Assembly (NCBI GenBank): GCA_905236055.1
Contig: CAJOOA010000009.1
Coordinates: forward strand, 1-35,166
From: Candidatus Gastranaerophilales bacterium
GTDB lineage: Bacteria; Cyanobacteriota; Vampirovibrionia; Gastranaerophilales; Gastranaerophilaceae
Direction: 5' to 3'
DNA: 35,166 nt
Within the stretch, counting starts at the first letter, position 1, and every line of letters starts with the position of its first letter. The notes beneath the pieces were generated by a model, which saw only the letters and a list, made by a program, of their open reading frames with translations, was not told the origin of the DNA and searched no databases. Position numbers and translations under genes: made by a program. Positions 13,868 to 33,628 of the stretch are shown piece after piece.

Positions 13868-14953
13868 TTATGATTGTTGAATAGCGCGTTTGAATTCTTC
13901 CGGACGACTTGATCTCGCAAGTGCATCTTCAAGAGTTATTTGTTTCTTTAAGTATAAATCTCTTAAAGACATTTCAAGAGTTTGCATTCCAAATCCGGAG
14001 TTTGTCTGCATTGTTGAATATATTTGAGCAGCTTTTGCTTCACGAATCAGGTTAGCAATTGCAGGTATTACAAGCATGACTTCTTGAGCCATTATACGAC
14101 CTTGCTTTGTGCCATCCGGCTGTAACAACGGCAGAAGTGTTTGTGAAAATACCGCAACCAATGAGTTGGAAAGCTGTACACGAACCTGCTGCTGTTGGCC
14201 TTCCGGAAAAACGTCGATGATACGGTCGATTGTTTGGGAAGCTGACGAAGTATGCAGTGTGCCGAATACCAAGTGCCCTGTTTCTGCTGCTGTCAAAGCC
14301 AATCTTATTGTATCCAAGTCTCTCATCTCACCTACGAGTATGATATCAGGATCTTCACGAAGAGCTGCTTTAAGAGCATTTGCGAAACTTCTTGTATCCT
14401 GTCCCAATTCTCTTTGGTGGATAATTGAACGTTTTGAAGGATGTATAAATTCTATAGGATCCTCAATCGTTAATATATGTTCTGAACGTGTTTCATTGAT
14501 ATAGTTAATCATTGCAGCAAGAGTTGTTGATTTACCTGAACCGGTTGGCCCTGTTACAAGAATCAATCCTCTCGGTTTTTCCGCCATCTTACGAACAGTA
14601 TCTGATAACCCAAGTTCTTTGAATGAAGGAACTTTTGATGCAATTACACGGAAAGCTGCTGCGTAATTTCCTCTGTCTTTGTATATGTTAACCCTGAATC
14701 GGCTTAAGCCCTGTATGCCGTATGAAAAATCGAGTTCCCAGTCCTGTTCAAGTTTACGTCTTTGTTCCTTGTTCAACATTGGGAATAGAAGTAGCTCAAC
14801 CTCTTCCGGTTTCAGTGCAGGGACATCCATTCTCTGCAAATTACCGTCAATACGAACGACAGGAGGCAATCCGGCAGAAATATGTAAGTCTGAACCTCTT
14901 TGTCTTACTACAACTTCCAAATATTTTTCAATAAGCATATCCAAGCTCTCCAA
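13868..14953 (-). CDS. pilT: Type IV pilus retraction ATPase PilT
   Basis: Hexameric cytoplasmic ATPase that depolymerises type IV pili and drives twitching. The 361 residues show every PilT landmark: N-terminal PAS-like domain with RGSDLHISAGLPP, Walker A GPTGSGKST at about 135, Asp box (TIEDPIEF), Walker B LVGEMRD, His box TGHLVFGTLHT, and the C-terminal IANLIREAKAAQIYSTMQT (PilT usually has AIRNLIRE; the Arg is Ala here, as IPAIANLIRE). No pilB, pilC or pilM-Q genes lie nearby. A good promoter sits directly upstream. A prepilin gene at 30278 is the only other pilus-linked gene in the window. Confidence 0.96.
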   Translation of the reverse strand: MESLDMLIEKYLEVVVRQRGSDLHISAGLPPVVRIDGNLQRMDVPALKPEEVELLLFPMLNKEQRRKLEQDWELDFSYGIQGLSRFRVNIYKDRGNYAAAFRVIASKVPSFKELGLSDTVRKMAEKPRGLILVTGPTGSGKSTTLAAMINYINETRSEHILTIEDPIEFIHPSKRSIIHQRELGQDTRSFANALKAALREDPDIILVGEMRDLDTIRLALTAAETGHLVFGTLHTSSASQTIDRIIDVFPEGQQQQVRVQLSNSLVAVFSQTLLPLLQPDGTKQGRIMAQEVMLVIPAIANLIREAKAAQIYSTMQTNSGFGMQTLEMSLRDLYLKKQITLEDALARSSRPEEFKRAIQQS

Positions 14954-16423: not shown

Positions 16424-17083
16424 ATGAGTATAAAAATTTTGCTTGTAGAAGATCAAAAATTAATGAGGATAGGTATAAAATCCTTGTTTGACGATTATAA
16501 AGAAATAGAAATAGTAGGCGAAGCATCAAACGGTAAAGAGGCAATTGAAAAAACCAAATTGATAAAACCGGATATTGTTTTGATGGATTTAGGGTTACCT
16601 GATTTGTCAGGAATTGATGCGGCTAAACAAATTCTGGAGCATAACAACAATATCTATGTAATAGCACTCACTTCTCATATAACGGAAGAGGAGGTTAATG
16701 CATCATTGCAAGCTGGTATAAGTGCCTATGTTATTAAAGATATTGCTACAGAATTTCTTATGAGTATTATCAAGATGGTTAAAACAGGGGCTATGTGGTT
16801 AGATCCGCATGTCGTTCCTTTTATACGTGACAAGAATTGCGGCACTATTCCGGCCAGACAATTATCTAGAAGTGTTTTTAGAGAACGTCATTCTAATCTT
16901 ACGCAAAGAGAATATGAGGTTTTGAAATTAATAGTTGACGGTCAGTCAAATAGCGATATTGCGAGGACATTAACAATAAGCGAGCATACTGCAAAGGCGC
17001 ATGTTTGTAATATTATACAAAAACTTGTTGTAGACGACAGAACGCAAGCTGCTGTAAAAGCATTAAAAGAAGGGTTGGTTTAA
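16424..17083 (+). CDS. NarL/FixJ-family response regulator (orphan)
   Basis: DNA-binding response regulator. The receiver domain occupies 1-about 120 with phospho-acceptor Asp55 (VLMDLGLPD), switch Ser/Thr (ALTS) and conserved Lys (YVIKD). A LuxR-type HTH runs from about 157 to 219 (LTQREYEVLKLIVDGQSNSDIARTLTISEHTAKAHVCNIIQKL). GGAG supports the ATG. No histidine kinase adjoins it. It resembles the second NarL-type regulator in this window (27965-28630), with near-identical C-terminal ends (RTQA-VKA-KEGLV), so the two are paralogues and may respond to related kinases or recognise similar sites. The 213-bp upstream gap shows no clear promoter. Its stop overlaps that of the convergent gene by 4 bp. 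Confidence 0.92.
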   Translation: MSIKILLVEDQKLMRIGIKSLFDDYKEIEIVGEASNGKEAIEKTKLIKPDIVLMDLGLPDLSGIDAAKQILEHNNNIYVIALTSHITEEEVNASLQAGISAYVIKDIATEFLMSIIKMVKTGAMWLDPHVVPFIRDKNCGTIPARQLSRSVFRERHSNLTQREYEVLKLIVDGQSNSDIARTLTISEHTAKAHVCNIIQKLVVDDRTQAAVKALKEGLV

Positions 17084-24821: not shown

Positions 24822-25814
24822 ATGAAAAACAAAAGAATTATTTTGTTAATAGGGCTATTGCTTTTGGCAGCAGGATTGATAGGTTTTTTCTTGATAGAGA
24901 AAACAACAGTTTTACAAGAAGTTAAGAATGCAAATCCAACTCAGCATAAGTCTGTTACTGATAAGAAGTCAGATTCAGATCTCGAAAAAGCAACCAAGAT
25001 AAATAAAATACAAACGAAACTATATTCCGAAAATCCAAATTATATGCCATTTGTATCGGCTGTAGAACTTTCAAAAATAGAACCGGCTACAAAAGCAAAA
25101 CTTTATGAAATATTGGAACAATCTCAAGGATTTTATTTGTTAAAACAAAATCCGGATACTCAGGATGTGTTTGTTATATTGCAAAATCCTGTTAAAAATG
25201 ATGAAAAGAGATATGCAAGACATAATTTACAGACGGTTAAAATTGGTGCTGACGGCAATGTAAGTTATATCAATATAGGTTTTGATGGGCTTGATAATGA
25301 AACGGAAAATGCCGTTGTTCAATGCAAAAATGAAGAATGGATTTTTGACGAATCAATTGAACCTTTTAGACCACTGAAACATATTATGTATGATAAAAAG
25401 AAAAAAGTTCTTTATACTGAAGTGTGGAATTATGATGATGCAGAGCCAATTAAGTATGAATTAATTGATGGTAACGGAAAGATATTATCGGTTAAAAAGG
25501 AAACCCAATCGGGTGATATGGAATATAGAGAAGAGCATGTTTTTTATAATGAAGAAGGAAATACCGTCAAAAGTATTTCAATAACTTATGAGGGTCCGGA
25601 TATTAGACGATTTACTTGTTATAATACGGAAATTCCGGATGAAAATATAACAATAGAGTCCATATACGATAACGGGTTAAAAACTGCTGAAAAAGTGTAT
25701 GATCAAGGTTACAAGCTTATTACAACAATCAATGCCGATTACAAAAATGGCGAAATTACTGCGTTAGAAGTTATAGATTTAGAAGATAGTGAAGCAGAAA
25801 CAGATAACGACTAG
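24822..25814 (+). CDS. Orphan protein with N-terminal membrane anchor
   Basis: Residues 1-26 (MKNKRIILLIGLLLLAAGLIGFFLI) form a signal anchor or uncleaved signal, so the rest is probably periplasmic. Residues about 30-60 are a charged linker. The remaining 270 residues are beta-rich and repetitive in character (FDGLDNETENAVVQCK, EYREEHVFYNEEGNTVKSISITYEG), recalling the beta-hairpin style of MORN/RHS-like repeats, but I cannot name a family. The AGAGGAAGAGG Shine-Dalgarno is strong. Strong consensus promoter. It is monocistronic and converges on the zincin-like gene, sharing a CTAG at the stops. Confidence 0.8.
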   Translation: MKNKRIILLIGLLLLAAGLIGFFLIEKTTVLQEVKNANPTQHKSVTDKKSDSDLEKATKINKIQTKLYSENPNYMPFVSAVELSKIEPATKAKLYEILEQSQGFYLLKQNPDTQDVFVILQNPVKNDEKRYARHNLQTVKIGADGNVSYINIGFDGLDNETENAVVQCKNEEWIFDESIEPFRPLKHIMYDKKKKVLYTEVWNYDDAEPIKYELIDGNGKILSVKKETQSGDMEYREEHVFYNEEGNTVKSISITYEGPDIRRFTCYNTEIPDENITIESIYDNGLKTAEKVYDQGYKLITTINADYKNGEITALEVIDLEDSEAETDND

Positions 25815-26632
25815 CGAGTTCGAACATTTTCTATCTTTTTAGGTCGGGTGAATACTTCCATAATTTTGTTCATTGCATATACAGAAACCCCGGTAATTGC
25901 AGCATAACCTACATAACTCAGTAGGGCTTTACCGTAGAACTTTTTGAGGTTTTTCACAGCAGAATTGGGCAGCTTGGCTTTTTTTGCCATTTTTATGCCA
26001 TTATGACTCGCTAATGCTTCTTCTGCGACAGTAGGAAGCATACCTGCAACTGCAATCCAATGGCAGTTATCTTGGACCCAATCCATTGCGTTTCTCGGCG
26101 CATCTTTGGGTTTTGGTCTGGTAAATAGCGCAATTGTTCCCATCATACCTGCAAGCCAATATCCAGGCCCTCTCATTCTCTGAAGTAGTTTACCAAACTT
26201 ACCTCTCATGTCATTCATAGCGTGCCCAAGTTCATGAAAGCCGGTAATGGATGCTTTATTCGTATTTAAAACTATTTCTGTTGTTTCTGGGTTAAAAAAT
26301 GCGTTTAATCCGGCTTTTACATCATAATTTAATATTTTGTTTTTAGGTAATAATGTATCTGCATGTGTAAAATCTTTATGTATTACTTTTAATCCTTTCT
26401 TTTCTAATCCGCTTAAATCAACTGCTTTAATAAATGCATCTTTATATAGGTTATTATTCGCGTGTTCTTTATGCATTTGTCTTAAAAATGGGTTTGAAAA
26501 CGGCGGCAGTGCCTTGTATATCAATGCAGAAGCAATCATTGCAGCTGTAGCACCTGCTTTTGCTTCAGCATAGCTTCTTCGTTGGTAAGTATTGCCATTA
26601 TAGTTATAGGTATCTGATATATATTCTACCAT
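25811..26632 (-). CDS. HELGH zincin-like membrane protein
   Basis: The track start is a TTG at 26644; the ATG at 26632 (MVEYISDTYNYNG) is likelier though no strong Shine-Dalgarno is present. A zinc-peptidase motif ITGFHELGHAMND lies near residue 138, and PTVAEEALASHNG about 65 residues later provides a Glu that could be the third ligand, as in gluzincins (M48-like HExxH...E). Hydrophobic segments at about 31-45, 160-175 and 240-257 suggest membrane contact. The family is not one I recognise, and substrate and membrane topology are unknown. It is convergent with the previous gene. Confidence 0.65.
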   Translation of the reverse strand: MVEYISDTYNYNGNTYQRRSYAEAKAGATAAMIASALIYKALPPFSNPFLRQMHKEHANNNLYKDAFIKAVDLSGLEKKGLKVIHKDFTHADTLLPKNKILNYDVKAGLNAFFNPETTEIVLNTNKASITGFHELGHAMNDMRGKFGKLLQRMRGPGYWLAGMMGTIALFTRPKPKDAPRNAMDWVQDNCHWIAVAGMLPTVAEEALASHNGIKMAKKAKLPNSAVKNLKKFYGKALLSYVGYAAITGVSVYAMNKIMEVFTRPKKIENVRTR

Positions 26633-26729
26633 TCCCACACCCAAAATATAGAATTCTACAATACATGCAAAACAAAACGTATCTCAAAGTTGCGTTATAT
26701 CGACCAAATTGTTACATTTTTAAATAAAA

Positions 26730-27965
26730 CTACATACCTTCGGTAGAAGTATTATTTTTATTTTTAGAATGTTTTTTTGCTTCTTTTAGTTTTAATTTAC
26801 GTTCTTTTATTTTTATAAGGGTTTCTATATCCATTTGGCGCAATTTACGTTTATATTCAAGTTTTTTTACTTTTTTATCAAACTTTTCGGCTTTTTTTAT
26901 TTTCTTTTTTTCGGCTTGTTCAAGTTTCTTAGCTTTTTTGGCTTCAAATTTAACTTCTTCAATATCTTTAATCGAATCTTCCGCAAGCTTAAAACCTATG
27001 ACAGATACAGGAACATTCAGACCGTCTATGTCTTCAAGTTTTGAGACTTCGCCTTCAACATCTATACTCCATGTCCCAAGGTATTCTGGCACATCGCCGG
27101 TATAGGCGTATGCACTCAATATAATTCTGTTATCATCATTCGCATCAAAGCCCATAGGATAGATATCCCATCGTTTTTCATCAAAATCAATATCATCATT
27201 TTTTGCCCAATAATTTACTATTGCGTCTCTGATTTGAGGCAACTTTGTTGCGGTCTTAGTTTCAAAGTTGTAAACCCACAAGTCCGTTTTCCAAATGCCA
27301 TCGTGTCTGTGTCCTACTTTTTCTTTGACAACCAGCTTTTTGTTATCTGCAGAAAAATCAATTGGTGTAAGCGTTCTAAATATAAATTTTGTATCAATGT
27401 CTTTGTCCGTGGAAATAAGCGGTGTTTCTTCTTTCTGAACAATATTTGCACGCATCGCTTTTTCCGTATCATTCAAGGTAGGATCAAGTTTTATTAAAAA
27501 TAAATCGCAGCAGGTACAATCGGTTTCTGCATAATAATAAACGGCAGGGTAAACTAGCATGGTTTTATCTCCGGATATTATTCCTTGTGCATTTATTTGT
27601 CTGTCAAAATTTAGTTTTCTCGGCAAACTTAACTCCGGACTGCCAACAGGACTATTATATTTTACTAATTTGTATGTCTTTTGTGGAACATAAACCATAT
27701 TTGAATCTTGTGGGACTTTTGCTTCATCGGGCTTAATTTCAGCTTTCGTTTTTGCTCTCGATTTTGCTTCATATTCTTCTACTGTCATATATCCGGACTC
27801 CGGCATACGACTTTTTTCGTATTTCTCTGTAGCGGCAACCTTTTCGACTTCATTTTGATATAAGAACTCTGCTACACCCCTATCTTGTCTTTTTGTAATA
27901 GGATATTTCATTTGGTTAAAATGTATTTTCATAGCCATTATTGAGCCAGCAAGAGTTGTAAACAT
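26730..27965 (-). CDS. Orphan protein with Lys-rich coiled-coil tail, coupled to a response regulator
   Basis: Its ATG shares one base with the stop of the regulator (TAATG), so it is translated with it. Residues about 100-330 form a beta-rich domain with propeller-like repeats (IDFSADNKKLVVKE; LWVYNFETKTATKLP; DIYPMGFDANDDNRIILSAY), recalling TolB-type repeats. A CTCC motif lies at about 150. Residues about 335-411 are Lys-rich and helical (FEAKKAKKLEQAEKKKIKKAEK), probably coiled coil or nucleic-acid/surface binding. There is no clear signal peptide, although the first 13 residues are hydrophobic. Likely an output or companion protein of the kinase/regulator pair; function unknown. Confidence 0.75.
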   Translation of the reverse strand: MFTTLAGSIMAMKIHFNQMKYPITKRQDRGVAEFLYQNEVEKVAATEKYEKSRMPESGYMTVEEYEAKSRAKTKAEIKPDEAKVPQDSNMVYVPQKTYKLVKYNSPVGSPELSLPRKLNFDRQINAQGIISGDKTMLVYPAVYYYAETDCTCCDLFLIKLDPTLNDTEKAMRANIVQKEETPLISTDKDIDTKFIFRTLTPIDFSADNKKLVVKEKVGHRHDGIWKTDLWVYNFETKTATKLPQIRDAIVNYWAKNDDIDFDEKRWDIYPMGFDANDDNRIILSAYAYTGDVPEYLGTWSIDVEGEVSKLEDIDGLNVPVSVIGFKLAEDSIKDIEEVKFEAKKAKKLEQAEKKKIKKAEKFDKKVKKLEYKRKLRQMDIETLIKIKERKLKLKEAKKHSKNKNNTSTEGM

Positions 27966-28630
27966 TATACCAAGCCCTCTTTCATCGCTTTAACAGTGGC
28001 CTGTGTTCTTGAAGCAGTACATAATTTTTGTAAAATACTGTGGACGTGCGCCTTCGCAGTGGCTCTGGTTATCACAAGTTTTTCTGCTATTTGCGGATTA
28101 GAAAGCCCATCTACCATTAGCTCGAGCACATCTAATTCTCTTTCCGTAAGTCCGTATGAATTTTTTGTTCTGTCAGATAAAACATCTGTTTGAGATGACT
28201 GACTTGATGTAGTTTTACCAAGATTTGAGAACACAATTTTTGCAATTGCAGGATCAATCCAGCCAACTCCATCATAAACGGCTCTTATAGCGGTTAAGGT
28301 TTGCTCCGGAGTAGCTCCTTTCATAACATATCCATCAGCGCCTGCTGCAAATGCACCCAGTATATCTTGTTCGCTGTTCCTTGATGTCAAAATAAGAATT
28401 TTGGTTTCGGGCAAGATTTCCTTTATTCTGGCAGTTGCCTCTATGCCATCCATATTAGGAAGCCCGATGTCCATGAGAATAACATCTGGTGTGTGCTCTC
28501 TGGCCAGTTTAATACCTGTTAAACCATCAGAAGCTTCTGCCACAAGACTTATACCTTCAGCTTTTTCAAGCACCATACCTAGTCCAATTCTGTATAATTC
28601 ATGATCTTCAACCAAAAGTACTCTTATCAT
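27965..28630 (-). CDS. NarL/FixJ-family response regulator
   Basis: Transcription factor of the kinase operon. Receiver (1-about 120) with acidic pair EDH, phospho-acceptor Asp54 (VILMDIGLPNMDG), ILTS switch and YVMKG Lys. The LuxR HTH is near 155-221 (LTERELDVLELMVDGLSNPQIAEKLVITRATAKAHVHSILQKL), joined by a Ser/Thr-rich linker (TTSSQSSQTDVLSDR). The ATG is 1 nt after the kinase stop, with a GGAGGA Shine-Dalgarno inside the kinase end. It also overlaps the next gene by one base, so three genes are tightly coupled. It is a paralogue of the orphan regulator at 16424. Confidence 0.94.
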   Translation of the reverse strand: MIRVLLVEDHELYRIGLGMVLEKAEGISLVAEASDGLTGIKLAREHTPDVILMDIGLPNMDGIEATARIKEILPETKILILTSRNSEQDILGAFAAGADGYVMKGATPEQTLTAIRAVYDGVGWIDPAIAKIVFSNLGKTTSSQSSQTDVLSDRTKNSYGLTERELDVLELMVDGLSNPQIAEKLVITRATAKAHVHSILQKLCTASRTQATVKAMKEGLV

Positions 28631-28631
28631 G

Positions 28632-30185
28632 TTATCCTCCGATACTTGCGGGCTGCTTTACGGCGTCAGTTAAAAGGAATGAAAATTCACTTCCTTTAGT
28701 AAGGACACTTTCAACCCATATTTTACCGCCATGTGATTCTATAATTTGGCGTGATAAATACAATCCCAAACCGGTGCCGGCAGAACGTTTAGTGCTTGTA
28801 CCCTGAGAAAAACGTTGAAACATATTTGGTATATCACACGCGGCGATTCCGGGACCGTTATCTGATACTGAAAAAATTAGGTCATTACCTTCATTTTTAA
28901 TTCTAATAACTACTTTCCCGTCTTCTTGGGTATAGTTGATTGCATTTCCGCACAAGTTGCATATTACACGTCTTAATTCACTTTTGTCTCCATAGACTTC
29001 CATATCTTGTTTCTCACAATCTATTGAAAAATCTATATTTTTACTTTCTGCTAATGGTTTTAATTCATCATATACAAGTTTTACGAGACTATATATATTG
29101 AAATCTTTTTTCTTCAATTCTAATTTTTCGGCATCATATTTATAGACTTCCAGCAAAGCATTTACAAGTCCTAGCAAATCTTCATTACTTTTTTGCATTG
29201 TAGCAAGTAATTTTCTTTGTTTTTCATCAAGTTCTCCAAGCGCACCATCAAGAAAGAACGTCAAAGTTTGGATAGCCGCAAGTAAAGGTGTCCTTAAATC
29301 GTGGGTTAATGTCGCAATAAAATCATCTCTCAATTTATCGGATTTTTTCTGTTCTGTTACATCTCTTATAACACCGACGAACTTTTTGTATTTATCATCA
29401 GGGTTGAACCTCGCAAAGCTAATTTCTACCGGGATAGCATTGTTGCAAAGAGGATTTTTAATATGAAAATCTCTTAAAAAGAGTTCATTTCCCTCAAATT
29501 GATGAAGCTCTTTTGATATAAAAGTCTTGTTGCTAAAAACATAATCGTCAATTGTTGAGCCAACTATTCGGCTGTTAACGAAACCAGTTAAATTTTCGCA
29601 GGCAGGGTTAACTTTCTCTATAATTCCGTCTTCATCGACAATAACAATACCGTCTGCACAATAATTTACTATTCCTTCCAGTTTTGCGTTTGTTTGTTTT
29701 AAATCGGCGGTACGGGCTTCAACAAGTTGTTCAAGATTATGGGAATATTTCTCCAACTCTTCATGAGCTATTTCCAACTCTTCAATTTTTTGTCTTAATT
29801 GTGACAATAAGTAACTTCTTTCAATTCCGTTTTTAATATTTATGATTAAGTCATCATTACTCCATGGCTTTTCGATATATCGGTAAAGACCGATTTCGTT
29901 GATTGCTCTTATCGCATTTTCTTTATCGGCATAACCAGTCAAAAGTATTTTACTAACTTCGGGATATAAATTCTTAACTTTTGATAAAAATTCTAAGCCG
30001 TTCATTTCCGGCATTAAAAAATCTGAGATAACCAAGTCCGGAGTGTTATTTCGCAAAAATTCCAGAGCTTCATTCGGATTGTTGAAAAAATGCGCATCAG
30101 AAAACCCCTCAACCTTTAGCAGTGTTGCAAAAGCAGAGGTAACTATTTTCTCATCATCGACTACAACAATCTTCCCCGTTTCCAT
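28632..30185 (-). CDS. Hybrid histidine kinase: REC-coiled coil-PAS-HisKA-HATPase
   Basis: Soluble sensor kinase with an N-terminal receiver domain (1-about 120; Asp55 in LVISDFLMPEMNG; TGYAD; Lys in YIEKPW). A coiled coil follows (IEELEIAHEELEKYSHNLEQ), then a PAS domain (about 165-275, ADGIVIVDEDGIIEKVNP), HisKA (H295 in THDLRTPLLA) and HATPase with NAINYT, DNGPGI and GTGLGLYLSR. No membrane segment, so signals are intracellular or arrive by phosphorelay through the receiver. It heads the operon and sits 1 nt before the NarL-type regulator, which is its probable partner. The ATG at 30185 falls at the predicted transcript start. Confidence 0.94.
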   Translation of the reverse strand: METGKIVVVDDEKIVTSAFATLLKVEGFSDAHFFNNPNEALEFLRNNTPDLVISDFLMPEMNGLEFLSKVKNLYPEVSKILLTGYADKENAIRAINEIGLYRYIEKPWSNDDLIINIKNGIERSYLLSQLRQKIEELEIAHEELEKYSHNLEQLVEARTADLKQTNAKLEGIVNYCADGIVIVDEDGIIEKVNPACENLTGFVNSRIVGSTIDDYVFSNKTFISKELHQFEGNELFLRDFHIKNPLCNNAIPVEISFARFNPDDKYKKFVGVIRDVTEQKKSDKLRDDFIATLTHDLRTPLLAAIQTLTFFLDGALGELDEKQRKLLATMQKSNEDLLGLVNALLEVYKYDAEKLELKKKDFNIYSLVKLVYDELKPLAESKNIDFSIDCEKQDMEVYGDKSELRRVICNLCGNAINYTQEDGKVVIRIKNEGNDLIFSVSDNGPGIAACDIPNMFQRFSQGTSTKRSAGTGLGLYLSRQIIESHGGKIWVESVLTKGSEFSFLLTDAVKQPASIGG

Positions 30186-30191
30186 ATTCTC

Positions 30192-30220
30192 ATATTAACC
30201 CAAATGCTTGCATTAGACAA
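30192..30220 (-). promoter_or_regulatory. Promoter of the REC-PAS-HisKA kinase operon (possibly leaderless)
   Basis: Minus strand TTGTCT, 17-bp spacer, TAATAT, followed by GAGAAT and then the ATG. The predicted start coincides with the A of the ATG, and no separate Shine-Dalgarno is seen. Confidence 0.55.
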
Positions 30221-30224
30221 ATTA

Positions 30225-30254
30225 TTAACAATTATTACTTAATTATGTTATAAT
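30225..30254 (+). promoter_or_regulatory. Promoter of the prepilin operon
   Basis: TTAACA, 18-bp spacer, TATAAT preceded by TGT (extended -10). It is back to back with the kinase promoter across 92 bp, so the two operons can be regulated together. Confidence 0.6.
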
Positions 30255-30277
30255 CAAACAAAAAGATGGTGGCATAG

Positions 30278-31021
30278 ATGAATAAAAATTCTAAATTTGG
30301 GTTTACATTGGCGGAGATTCTTATAGCGATGGGAATCGCAGGTGCTATTGCTGCTCTTACGATTCCACAACTTGTAGTGAGTACTCAAAGTAATAAGTTT
30401 GCTACGGCATTGGGACGCTCAGTGGAAACAATTGAGACCGGCTGCCAAGCTCTGATTCAGGACGCAGGCGAGTATTCCAGTGATGGGGAAATTTTTGGAC
30501 ACGCATTAATAGAAGTTGGATATGATACCAGGGGGACAGCTCCTCCGCTTATAATAGCTGATAGTAAGTTATTTGAGAATGCCGGAGCTTTTTTTGATGC
30601 AACGCCATTGTCAGATTCACAACAGTCTAGCTATACCGGTAGTGTAAAGTCTTATACAGGAGGTGCACCATCGCCAAGGGTAAGTAGTATAGCCGGAAAA
30701 TTTGCTGTCAATACAAAACTCGGAGCATATTATGGTGTGCTGAAAAGAACGGATGAAGCAAATGCGGATGATCCCTTGGTTGAATTAATTTATATTGATG
30801 TAAACGGTGCAAATCCACCAAACAGATATGGTAGGGATGTATTTTTATTCGGACTTACGGATGCTTGCCATATGATACCTGCAGGTACAAATCGTATGAA
30901 TTCATGGTATTCCGGTGTTGCACTCGCAACGTCAGCATGTGATGGTGGAAATGTAACAAATGGATTATCTTGTACGGAAAGAGTTGTTAGAGAAGGTTTT
31001 AAAAATAATTACAGCAGATAA
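30278..31021 (+). CDS. Type IV prepilin-like (pseudopilin) protein
   Basis: The N-terminus KFG|FTLAEILIAMGIAGAIAALTIPQL is a class III prepilin signal: a short basic leader, prepilin peptidase site after Gly8, Phe at +1 and Glu at +5, then the hydrophobic helix. The globular part (about 40-247) has Cys residues near the end (CHMI, CDGG, SCTERVVREGF) for possible disulfides. The 247 residues are longer than a classical major pilin, as for minor pilins or the pilin-like proteins abundant in this lineage. A GGTGG Shine-Dalgarno lies 10 nt before the ATG. It is followed by a PC4-like gene 14 bp later. PilT at 13868 could serve it. Confidence 0.88.
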   Translation: MNKNSKFGFTLAEILIAMGIAGAIAALTIPQLVVSTQSNKFATALGRSVETIETGCQALIQDAGEYSSDGEIFGHALIEVGYDTRGTAPPLIIADSKLFENAGAFFDATPLSDSQQSSYTGSVKSYTGGAPSPRVSSIAGKFAVNTKLGAYYGVLKRTDEANADDPLVELIYIDVNGANPPNRYGRDVFLFGLTDACHMIPAGTNRMNSWYSGVALATSACDGGNVTNGLSCTERVVREGFKNNYSR

Positions 31022-31035
31022 AAGGAGATAAAATT

Positions 31036-31269
31036 ATGGCAGGAAAATTACTTGCGAGTATTCAAAGATCAGATACAGAACAATTACAAATATCTATTTC
31101 CGAATACAAAGGGAAAAGCTATTTCAACTTGAGAATATTTTACACTACGGATGATGGCGCGAATTGGCTGCCGACTAAGAAAGGTGTTACTTTTGCACCT
31201 GATCAATTAGATATTTTATCGGATGCGATAGAAGAAGCTAAAAAAGAGTTTATGACTGAAGAGGGGTAA
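31036..31269 (+). CDS. PC4/YdbC-like ssDNA-binding protein
   Basis: Resembles the PC4 (transcriptional coactivator p15)/YdbC family that binds single-stranded DNA through a beta-sheet and a C-terminal helix. The hallmark is LQISISEYKGKSYFNLRIFYTTDDGANWLPTKKGVTFAP (about 17-55), then a helix (LDILSDAIEEAKKEF). At 77 residues the length matches the bacterial form. AAGGAGA is an excellent Shine-Dalgarno. It is the second gene of the prepilin operon. Its TAA stop lies in frame with the next ORF (see finding). Bacterial members' roles are poorly known; regulation of transcription or DNA repair is possible. Confidence 0.85.
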   Translation: MAGKLLASIQRSDTEQLQISISEYKGKSYFNLRIFYTTDDGANWLPTKKGVTFAPDQLDILSDAIEEAKKEFMTEEG

Positions 31270-31299
31270 ATATACTCATTCAACAATTTACTTAAAATT

Positions 31300-32010
31300 A
31301 TGACTTTACAAGATGAAATAATATCAACAGTTTCGCATGAAATGAGAACCCCCCTGACTAGTATCAGGGGCTTTTCTCAAACACTTTTAAATTCATGGGA
31401 AAAACTTGATGATGATAATAAAAGGAAGTTTATCAAAATTATAGAAGAACAGTCTAATCGATTGATTAATCTTGTTGAGAACATTCTTACTGTATCAAAA
31501 GAAAATTCGGAAATACTGGTTTTTAAAAAAATAGATGTGAACAAGTTGATTAAAGATATTTTACCAATTTTTACCGAAAAATATAAGGACCATAAATTTA
31601 TATTTAACGAAAGTAAAAACTCTTTGTTGGCGAGATTAGATGAAGATAAGTTTCAACAGATAATAACAAATTTGCTTGATAATGCAGGAAAATATTCTCA
31701 AGAAAATACCATGGTTACTATAACTACAGAACTGCAAAATGAATTTATATTGATAAAAATATCAGATGAGGGTATTGGTATTAAAGCTGAAGATGTGGAC
31801 AAGCTGTTCAAAAAATTTAGCCGTATTGAAAATCATTTGACAAGTAAAACTCAGGGGAACGGACTGGGGTTGTATATAACAAAAAATTTGGTTGAAAAAA
31901 TGAACGGAAAGATATCTTTAAAAAGCCAATTTAATAAGGGAACGGAATTTCAAATAGAATTCCCTTTGTATAATCCGGAGGAGGCGTTAAAATGCTCTCG
32001 AACCTCCTAA
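31300..32010 (+). CDS. Minimal soluble histidine kinase (HisKA-HATPase)
   Basis: Has only the transmitter: HisKA with H13 in STVSHEMRTPLTS, dimerisation helices, then HATPase with NLLDNAGKYS (N box), DEGIGI (G1), FKKFSR and GNGLGLYITK (G2). There is no sensor, transmembrane or HAMP region. Upstream of the ATG is no Shine-Dalgarno; GAGGGG lies 33 nt back at the end of the PC4-like gene. The 10 codons between the PC4-like TAA and this ATG are open and in the same frame. Either it starts by reinitiation, or the 5' end has been lost. It ends inside the next gene with a 19-bp overlap. Confidence 0.9.
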   Translation: MTLQDEIISTVSHEMRTPLTSIRGFSQTLLNSWEKLDDDNKRKFIKIIEEQSNRLINLVENILTVSKENSEILVFKKIDVNKLIKDILPIFTEKYKDHKFIFNESKNSLLARLDEDKFQQIITNLLDNAGKYSQENTMVTITTELQNEFILIKISDEGIGIKAEDVDKLFKKFSRIENHLTSKTQGNGLGLYITKNLVEKMNGKISLKSQFNKGTEFQIEFPLYNPEEALKCSRTS

Positions 32011-33278
32011 TAATAGATAAGAGGAAAGAACTTTCCGTCAAATACAAAAAAGCGCTTGATGATGAACAAACAAACGTAAAAATTGCGAAAAATCTCAGGG
32101 ACGCAATGAGTTTAATACAAACGTCAGAGCCGGATTTGATTATTATTTCGGATAGTATAGAAGAATCATTGATTTCTTTTTGTCAAAAAGTCAGAGCGCT
32201 TACTTACAATACAAGACCGGTTATTGTCGCATTGTCCAAATCAGCAGATATGAATGACAGAATTCAAGTTTTGGAAAGTGGCGCTGATGACTTTTGGAGT
32301 GAGCCAGTCGATATTGAGGAATTTAAGACCCGTATAAAAGCACATTTGAGAAGGGAATTAGAATCAAATTTAGATAATAAAACTTTGTTACCGAATAACT
32401 TCGCGACGGTTAAAAGCTTAAAAAGAGTTCTTAATAACGACAAAGACAGAGCTGTGCTTTTAATAGGTATTGACAATTTGAATGAATATATCAGTGTATA
32501 TTCGGATATTGCCGGAGATAAGTTGATACAAGCGTTTGTAGCAATAGTTAAATCTGCGATTGAGGTGAAGGACTTTTTCGGACAAATTGATAATAATAAC
32601 TTTGTTTTGATTACAAATCCATACAGAGCCGAAAAATTTGCTGCATATCTTGCATTTGCTTTCGATACGGTTGTACCTAAATTTTATTCTGAGACCGATG
32701 TTAAAAGGGGTTATGTGCTAGTAAAAGGCGACAATAAAGCGGGCATGAGAGCCAATTTTGTTTCTTTGCGAATCGGCGGAATTATGGACGGATACGACTT
32801 AATCGGTACAACAGATGCACTTTTGGAACGTCTATATTATTTGAAAAAATCCGCTCGACTACAATCGGGTTCAAATTATATAATTGATCGAGTCAAATTA
32901 ACAGGTGATATTTTAAATCTTAATGATTCAATGTTTGGCAAAATATATATAAAAGAGCCAGACGAATCACTTTCTTTGTTAATTAGGACCACTTTGGAAC
33001 TTCAAGGATATGAGGTTGTAAATACAATTGACTCTGAAAACCCCATACAACCGGCATTAATTATTATTGATAGCGGCGATAATATGAAGGAACTTGATTA
33101 TTGCAGAAATTTAAAAAATAATCCGAATTTTGCCAATACAAAAATAATTGTTACTACGTCCGTTCATGACAAAACAGCTGTGCTTGATGCCGGAGCAGAT
33201 TTGTACTTGCCAAAACCCTATGAATTGACTGATTTGATAGGGTGGATTGAGTACTTTTATAAAATGAACAATATTTAA
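31992..33278 (+). CDS. REC-degenerate GGDEF-REC signalling protein
   Basis: Starts inside the kinase gene with a GGAGGAGG Shine-Dalgarno, so the two are coupled. Receiver 1 (1-about 120) has Asp54 (IIISDSIEES) and a KLIID-like start (LLIIDKRKEL) with only one acidic residue of the usual pair. Residues about 140-310 look like a GGDEF-type domain (VLLIGIDNLNEYISVYSDIAGDKLIQAF), but the active loop is GQIDNNNF instead of GGDEF, so no diguanylate cyclase activity is expected. Receiver 2 (about 318-428) has LIIIDSG and a Lys in LPKPYE. Probably a phospho-acceptor/adaptor for the neighbouring kinases. No DNA-binding domain. Confidence 0.85.
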   Translation: MLSNLLIIDKRKELSVKYKKALDDEQTNVKIAKNLRDAMSLIQTSEPDLIIISDSIEESLISFCQKVRALTYNTRPVIVALSKSADMNDRIQVLESGADDFWSEPVDIEEFKTRIKAHLRRELESNLDNKTLLPNNFATVKSLKRVLNNDKDRAVLLIGIDNLNEYISVYSDIAGDKLIQAFVAIVKSAIEVKDFFGQIDNNNFVLITNPYRAEKFAAYLAFAFDTVVPKFYSETDVKRGYVLVKGDNKAGMRANFVSLRIGGIMDGYDLIGTTDALLERLYYLKKSARLQSGSNYIIDRVKLTGDILNLNDSMFGKIYIKEPDESLSLLIRTTLELQGYEVVNTIDSENPIQPALIIIDSGDNMKELDYCRNLKNNPNFANTKIIVTTSVHDKTAVLDAGADLYLPKPYELTDLIGWIEYFYKMNNI

Positions 33279-33289
33279 GTTATTTCTAA

Positions 33290-33628
33290 ATCCATAACGA
33301 TTTAGGTATTGATGAGAATTTCTTATTCAAGTCTATTAAAAAAATTGAAGGTGATTCTGATTTTGAAAATTTACAAGTAACGAACCTAGGGCAATTGAAA
33401 TATATAGGCGGAGATGGACATTTTTCTTGTAACAGAGTTAAGCGCTTAGGTAAATTGAAATATATAAAAGGGAATGCCTATTTTGATGAGTCATGGGTTT
33501 CGGATTTGGGAATGCTCAATTTTATCGGCGGAGATATTGAAATCTATGATGCACCATTAACAGAAAAAGCATTTGAATCGGTCAAAGTCGGTGGTGAAAT
33601 ACGAAAAGGTCAATGGAAACGTAAATAA
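33290..33628 (+). pseudogene. 5'-truncated leucine-rich-repeat protein remnant
   Basis: The track reports 77 residues from a TTG at 33395, but the frame is open from just after a TAA at 33287 with no ATG, GTG or TTG start before 33395, and the TTG lacks a usable Shine-Dalgarno. The translation holds about three 20-residue repeats of the form V-x-x-L-G-x-L-x-x-I-x-G-x-x-x-F (for example VTNLGQLKYIGGDGHF and VKRLGKLKYIKGNAYF). Such repeats occur in bacterial LRR-like proteins. The start of the gene is missing, so I read it as a remnant. The rest of the 33279-33633 stretch has no other feature. Confidence 0.5.

Follow-up and report, generated by a model that had tools for sequence, protein, structure and literature searches.

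Two probably independent two-component pairs adjoin a shared divergent promoter region in one genus of Gastranaerophilales

Analysis of a divergent signalling locus from a Candidatus Gastranaerophilales bacterium (non-photosynthetic Cyanobacteria; 1.76 Mb draft genome) suggests that the region probably consists of two independent, ancient two-component pairs standing side by side in one genus, rather than one new relay. The window, that is, the whole stretch of DNA analysed, is one contig (C9) of that genome and comprises 35,166 nucleotides; the locus was compared with more than 150 related loci. Of the named relatives, the closest are MAGs of 'Candidatus Gastranaerophilales', many of which come from gut samples. 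The original prediction had suggested a single multi-step relay joining both halves and the prepilin; the conservation of the neighbourhood and the oddity of the PC4-like protein stood, but the joining relay found no support.

Seven open reading frames were found at the predicted positions, with the predicted junctions and with domain assignments matching Pfam (Table 1). HK1 and the prepilin gene are 92 bp apart; a single nucleotide (28631) separates HK1 from the NarL-type regulator, which overlaps the Lys-rich ORF by 1 nt (TAATG at 27965). HK2 and RGR overlap by 19 bp (31992-32010), and the length of this overlap is nearly constant in the genus loci. Among the NCBIfam models listed, none scored over its cut-off as an equivalog for HK1, HK2 or RGR. 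A 77-aa ORF after RGR (window 33301-33628) looks like a repeat-protein remnant, and the repeat-like reading seems to extend upstream of the ORF start. A second NarL-type regulator (window 16424-17083) has no adjoining kinase within the window and lies near a PilT-like ATPase (13868-14953).

Table 1. Features of the divergent signalling locus, in window coordinates.
Feature	Position	Strand	Evidence or remark
Lys-rich ORF	26730..27965	-	Third gene of HK1-NarL unit; conserved core ~residues 95-332
NarL-type response regulator	27965..28630	-	Pfam REC + GerE (LuxR HTH)
HK1	28632..30185	-	Pfam REC + PAS + HisKA + HATPase
Divergent promoter region	30186..30277	.	Promoter scan and conservation across genus sequences
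Type IV prepilin-like protein	30278..31021	+	N_methyl, TIGR02532
PC4-like ssDNA-binding protein (predicted)	31036..31269	+	Pfam PC4; gene relocated from upstream of priA, judging by gene order in relatives
HK2 histidine kinase, no sensor domain	31300..32010	+	Pfam HisKA + HATPase only
RGR (REC-GGDEF-REC protein)	31992..33278	+	Pseudo-REC 1-122; dead GGDEF ~123-300; complete REC 316-428, acceptor Asp360

Analysis of RGR with Pfam revealed a REC domain, a weak GGDEF match (7e-8) and a second REC domain. Its AlphaFold model (mean pLDDT 85, pTM 0.63) has the REC/GGDEF fold by Foldseek comparison to 1w25, 3bre and 6zxb, with PleD and DgcR as the best PDB matches. RGR had been described as a double-REC protein; it does contain two REC domains, but the N-terminal one is a pseudo-receiver, leaving one usable acceptor only. 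Alignment to KdpE and PleD showed REC1 to be without the Asp, the Lys and one acidic residue. Serine occupies the phospho-Asp slot in 108 of 116 sequences (an Asp occurs one place later in 111/116) and glutamic acid occupies the Lys slot in 114/116, and with these residues RGR does not have two usable receivers. REC2 is complete in Gastranaerophilales: E322, D324, D360 and K408 were found in 115/115 readable sequences and T/S389 in 110. No more than 2 of 116 sequences have the second Gly of the GGDEF motif, and the motif here reads DNNNF, which is not a PleD-type diguanylate cyclase motif. The I-site (RxxD) is also lacking: almost all 116 sequences carry Asp, Glu, Ser or Asn at the Arg slot, and there is no Arg among the residues listed. 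Both REC1 and GGDEF are dead throughout Gastranaerophilales. Since RGR possesses no DNA-binding domain, cyclase motif or c-di-GMP I-site, its output would be by protein contact, made by the pseudo-receiver and the dead GGDEF body once REC2 is phosphorylated.

RGR occurs as a single copy and was found in 130 of 146 genomes of the class at E <= 1e-30. No full-length match was found in the sampled genomes from other classes of the phylum, of which eight gave a GGDEF match only, in other proteins (membrane HAMP-GGDEF cyclases where inspected). The closest GGDEF-domain relatives of RGR found were membrane Cache-HAMP-GGDEF (GGDDF) proteins of another lineage of the phylum (L204:2164-3864 and L205:2965-4665), and such proteins are a possible ancestor of its dead GGDEF domain.

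HK2 matched HisKA (4e-18) and HATPase (2e-28) in Pfam, with no further domain, and it possesses the phospho-acceptor His and the N, G1 and G2 boxes, all of them conserved. Its earlier description as sensorless thus fits its domain content, but the kinase is not minimal by origin; it appears to be a truncated, derived form of a PAS-HisKA kinase. HK2 is 227-239 aa long in the genus; it reaches 303-370 aa in 14 further genomes of the order and, measured from stop to stop, 351-409 aa in the wider class, and a PAS domain was detected in several relatives outside the genus. By these comparisons, HK2 has lost its PAS sensor. In the relatives just outside the genus (L151-L168) HK2 is already without PAS and no PC4 gene adjoins it; sensor loss therefore predates the rearrangement. 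Lacking PAS, HK2 would receive its input from a partner protein or through its own expression. PAS is also missing from HK1 orthologues in several families (L082-L088; REC-HisKA only, ~365 aa), and both kinases of the locus have therefore undergone PAS loss.

The HK2 and RGR genes are adjacent wherever loci of the genus or the order hold both, including other places in 14 genomes of the order, and in 13/13 wider-class loci from seven further families. Outside the genus no conserved functional neighbour of the pair recurs between families, and no description of the pair was found in the literature. HK2 would autophosphorylate at His13 and pass the phosphate to Asp360 of REC2, kinase-partner assignments here being based on adjacency and established two-component knowledge.

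Comparison of 33 wider-class loci revealed two states of the REC2 acceptor: Asp in families f9, f14 and f15 (8 loci) and Glu in 25/25 loci of f8, f10, f12 and f13 (L193-L198, L201, L208-L225), where the receiver is not complete. The REC2 Lys is kept in nearly all sequences of Gastranaerophilales, f9, f14 and f15. The His, Asn and G2 Gly of HK2 are intact in all 32 readable wider-class loci. In four f9 genomes (L199, L200, L227, L228) the G1-box Asp is replaced by Asn, possibly impairing ATP binding. By residue state, then, the pair is maintained both with and without a phosphorylatable REC2, and this is the least ordinary result of this study. Because Glu at REC2 accompanies an intact HK2 in f8, f10, f12 and f13, phosphotransfer from HK2 to RGR is not the class-wide reason for keeping the pair. 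We tentatively suggest, as a possibility well short of an even chance, that HK2-RGR is a class-wide core pair in which the kinase is intact and either controls its response regulator or is controlled by it, the acceptor of that regulator having switched between Asp and Glu at the family level. If so, it constitutes a natural series in which a response regulator shifts between work that depends on phosphorylation and work that does not, with its kinase retained.

The same residues bear on a further explanation, that RGR is mainly an unphosphorylated partner of HK2, a scaffold or allosteric regulator that binds the kinase or another protein through its pseudo-receiver, dead GGDEF and REC2, phosphorylation of REC2 being a lineage-specific extra. 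The Glu acceptor in 25/25 loci with HK2 residues intact and adjacency kept, together with REC1 and GGDEF being dead across Gastranaerophilales, is consistent with it; however, 115 of 115 readable Gastranaerophilales sequences, as well as f9, f14 and f15, retain the REC2 Asp, nearly always with the Lys, which suggests selection for phosphorylation there, and we consider this explanation unlikely. Three f14 genomes (G056, G083, G101) contain HK1 and HK2-like kinases with no RGR match at E <= 1e-30, a threshold that a very divergent RGR could have escaped.

For the leftward pair, alignment of HK1 revealed a complete REC domain (D10, D11, D55, T83, K106) and an invariant H295. HK1 and NarL are adjacent, at another locus, in 15/15 genomes of the order examined outside the genus, and in most of these 15 the orthologue of the Lys-rich gene comes next. 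The Lys-rich ORF is present in 33 of 37 relatives; outside the genus its orthologues carry no Lys-rich tail and begin with a hydrophobic, signal-peptide-like stretch. No Pfam family scored above cut-off for this ORF, and a TolB/S9-peptidase propeller fold was set aside, the model match being weak (E = 2e-4, TM <= 0.29) and suggestive only. A HELGH-motif, metallopeptidase-like protein without a confident Pfam match is encoded at window 25811-26644, and its orthologue adjoins the Lys-rich gene in L053 and L119. NarL is the sole DNA-binding output of the locus. HK1 would phosphorylate NarL, NarL would regulate genes, and the third protein of the operon is possibly exported.

Two genomes keep HK1 without HK2-RGR: in G146 (99% complete) RGR is absent and the best HK2-like match, within a frame of 415 aa, shows only 34% identity; G016 (89% complete) also lacks HK2-RGR. 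HK1 gave no match in f8, f10, f12 and f13 at E <= 1e-90; we set this result aside, since forms without PAS break up into weaker matches.

The two back-to-back promoters predicted between the units are credible, because 29 genus sequences largely conserve both -10 boxes as well as the -35/-35 core TTAGACAAATTATTAACA (30213-30230), which holds both -35 boxes. The putative rightward promoter (TTAACA-18-TATAAT, extended -10) was the top of 15 sites in a scan (11/12 matches) that gave the same number of hits in the region as in shuffled sequence; the real evidence for it is conservation over the 29 sequences, not the scan score. The leftward promoter (TTGTCT-17-TAATAT) scored under the threshold of the scan tool. 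The core is a single site in the whole window, with no extra copies that would mark a regulon motif. The HK1 ATG follows the end of the leftward -10 box by 6 nt, which makes a leaderless HK1 mRNA probable (window 28632-30200). In most genus members a comparable box lies roughly as far from the HK1 ATG, even where HK1 is located elsewhere.

The original prediction hinged in part on the neighbourhood recurring beyond this genome, and a search across genomes found that it does. The sample comprised 61 loci (L089-L149), 55 of which have PC4 upstream of HK2; the remaining six are L128, cut at a contig start, and L140, L142, L143, L144 and L147, which fall outside the genus in the RGR tree. HK1 is divergent from PC4-HK2-RGR in 47/55 genus loci. 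In a FastTree phylogeny of RGR every PC4-linked locus falls in one clade with weak support at its base (0.53), the other genera forming successive outgroups, and prepilin loss and HK1 detachment are scattered within the clade. This pattern indicates, on the simplest reading, that the full arrangement arose once, at the genus root, and was later eroded. HK1-NarL and HK2-RGR are unlinked in every genome of the order examined outside the genus, and some members of the genus itself also have them apart. The modular history, the residue states, the PAS loss and the PC4 relocation are direct results of sequence comparison.

For a multi-step relay through RGR, two acceptors would be required and usually also an HPt domain or a second His between two receivers. 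A genus-level circuit of HK2, RGR, the HK1 receiver and NarL, enabled by linkage, could draw on the complete N-terminal REC of HK1 as the target of another kinase and on the linkage and common promoter region in 47/55 genus loci. However, none of the seven proteins gave an Hpt match in Pfam, RGR offers a single acceptor, the two pairs stand apart beyond the genus and also in several of its members, and HK1 persists where HK2-RGR is missing. Such a relay through the double-REC protein is therefore unsupported, and we regard it as improbable. The conserved shared promoter region and the linkage in most of the genus could nevertheless reflect a shared function, which counts against two separate pairs. 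We favour the latter, in which HK1-NarL would be a separate pair with a divergent promoter region common to the HK2-RGR side.

The PC4-like protein is predicted to be of the ssDNA-binding type (Pfam PC4, E = 5.5e-15, 55.0 bits against a cut-off of 25; phmmer to 5a4n, 1.5e-7). Its presence beside kinases had been called unusual, and the comparison agrees. The PC4 gene lies directly before priA in 18/18 genomes of the other genera of the family and in 11/15 other loci of the order, the four exceptions all belonging to family f6 (one of them lies at the edge of a contig, beside a fragment resembling priA). It lies next to HK2 in this genus only, upstream of it in 55/55 genus loci with readable sequence. 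By gene order it is therefore a relocated housekeeping-type gene from upstream of priA and no original member of a signalling operon. A further explanation is that the locus is a co-expression unit, with PC4 expressed from the divergent promoter and influencing promoter opening or the replication-linked expression of the signalling genes. The retention of PC4 upstream of HK2 in 55/55 loci after leaving priA agrees with this, but we consider it very improbable: PC4-HK2 spacing ranges from 13 bp to 2.6 kb with intervening genes in some loci, and almost every other genus tested in the family conserves a single PC4 copy that does not adjoin these kinases, which places its main role elsewhere.

The prepilin shows the N-terminal prepilin peptidase motif GFTLxE followed by a hydrophobic helix (GFTLAEILIAMGIAGAIAALT); it scored 18.4 bits with TIGR02532 (cut-off 16.3) and just under the cut-off of 21.2 with N_methyl (E = 2.4e-4, 21.0 bits). 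It occurs in 34/55 genus loci at varying positions and is missing from 21/55, an absence that speaks against its proposed part in the signalling circuit; it is an optional, fast-evolving passenger of the locus. Under the two-pair reading, PC4 and the prepilin would have been brought into the rightward transcription unit in the genus ancestor, PC4 staying and the prepilin often being lost. A striking operon with PC4 among kinases can come from one relocation event, and a gene neighbourhood in a single genus is therefore weak evidence of a shared circuit.

A literature search turned up no account of comparable signalling pairs from these uncultured gut bacteria. The two conserved pairs identified are open to study with purified proteins alone, and the HK2-RGR family, with its fixed pseudo-receiver, dead cyclase and Asp or Glu acceptor by family, makes it testable how a response regulator outlives its phosphorylation site. 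Among known systems, Caulobacter PleD consists of a receiver, a pseudo-receiver (PsR) and a diguanylate cyclase (PMC12632262). RGR is likewise a soluble response regulator that unites a receiver, a pseudo-receiver and a GGDEF domain, and PleD 1w25 is the best PDB structure match of its model (E = 2.1e-17, TM 0.44). Unlike PleD (REC-PsR-GGDEF), RGR has the order PsR-GGDEF-REC, a dead GGDEF without the I-site Arg, and its sole complete REC at the C-terminus. Atypical response regulators, or pseudo-receivers, are without at least one of five conserved REC residues (PMC12632262); REC1 fits this definition, and REC2 is also without the Asp in f8, f10, f12 and f13. RGR differs from other atypical response regulators in its fixed, class-wide combination of pseudo-REC, dead GGDEF and switchable REC2, with an intact kinase adjoining. 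The HK1-NarL operon resembles NarL/FixJ-type pairs in its REC and GerE regulator, but its kinase carries an N-terminal REC, and most genomes have a third conserved gene after the regulator. The PC4-like protein shares the Pfam PC4 domain with known ssDNA-binding proteins (BPSL1147, PDB 5a4n; phage T5 protein, PDB 4bg7) and differs from them in that its gene stands before priA in relatives and by a kinase only in this genus.
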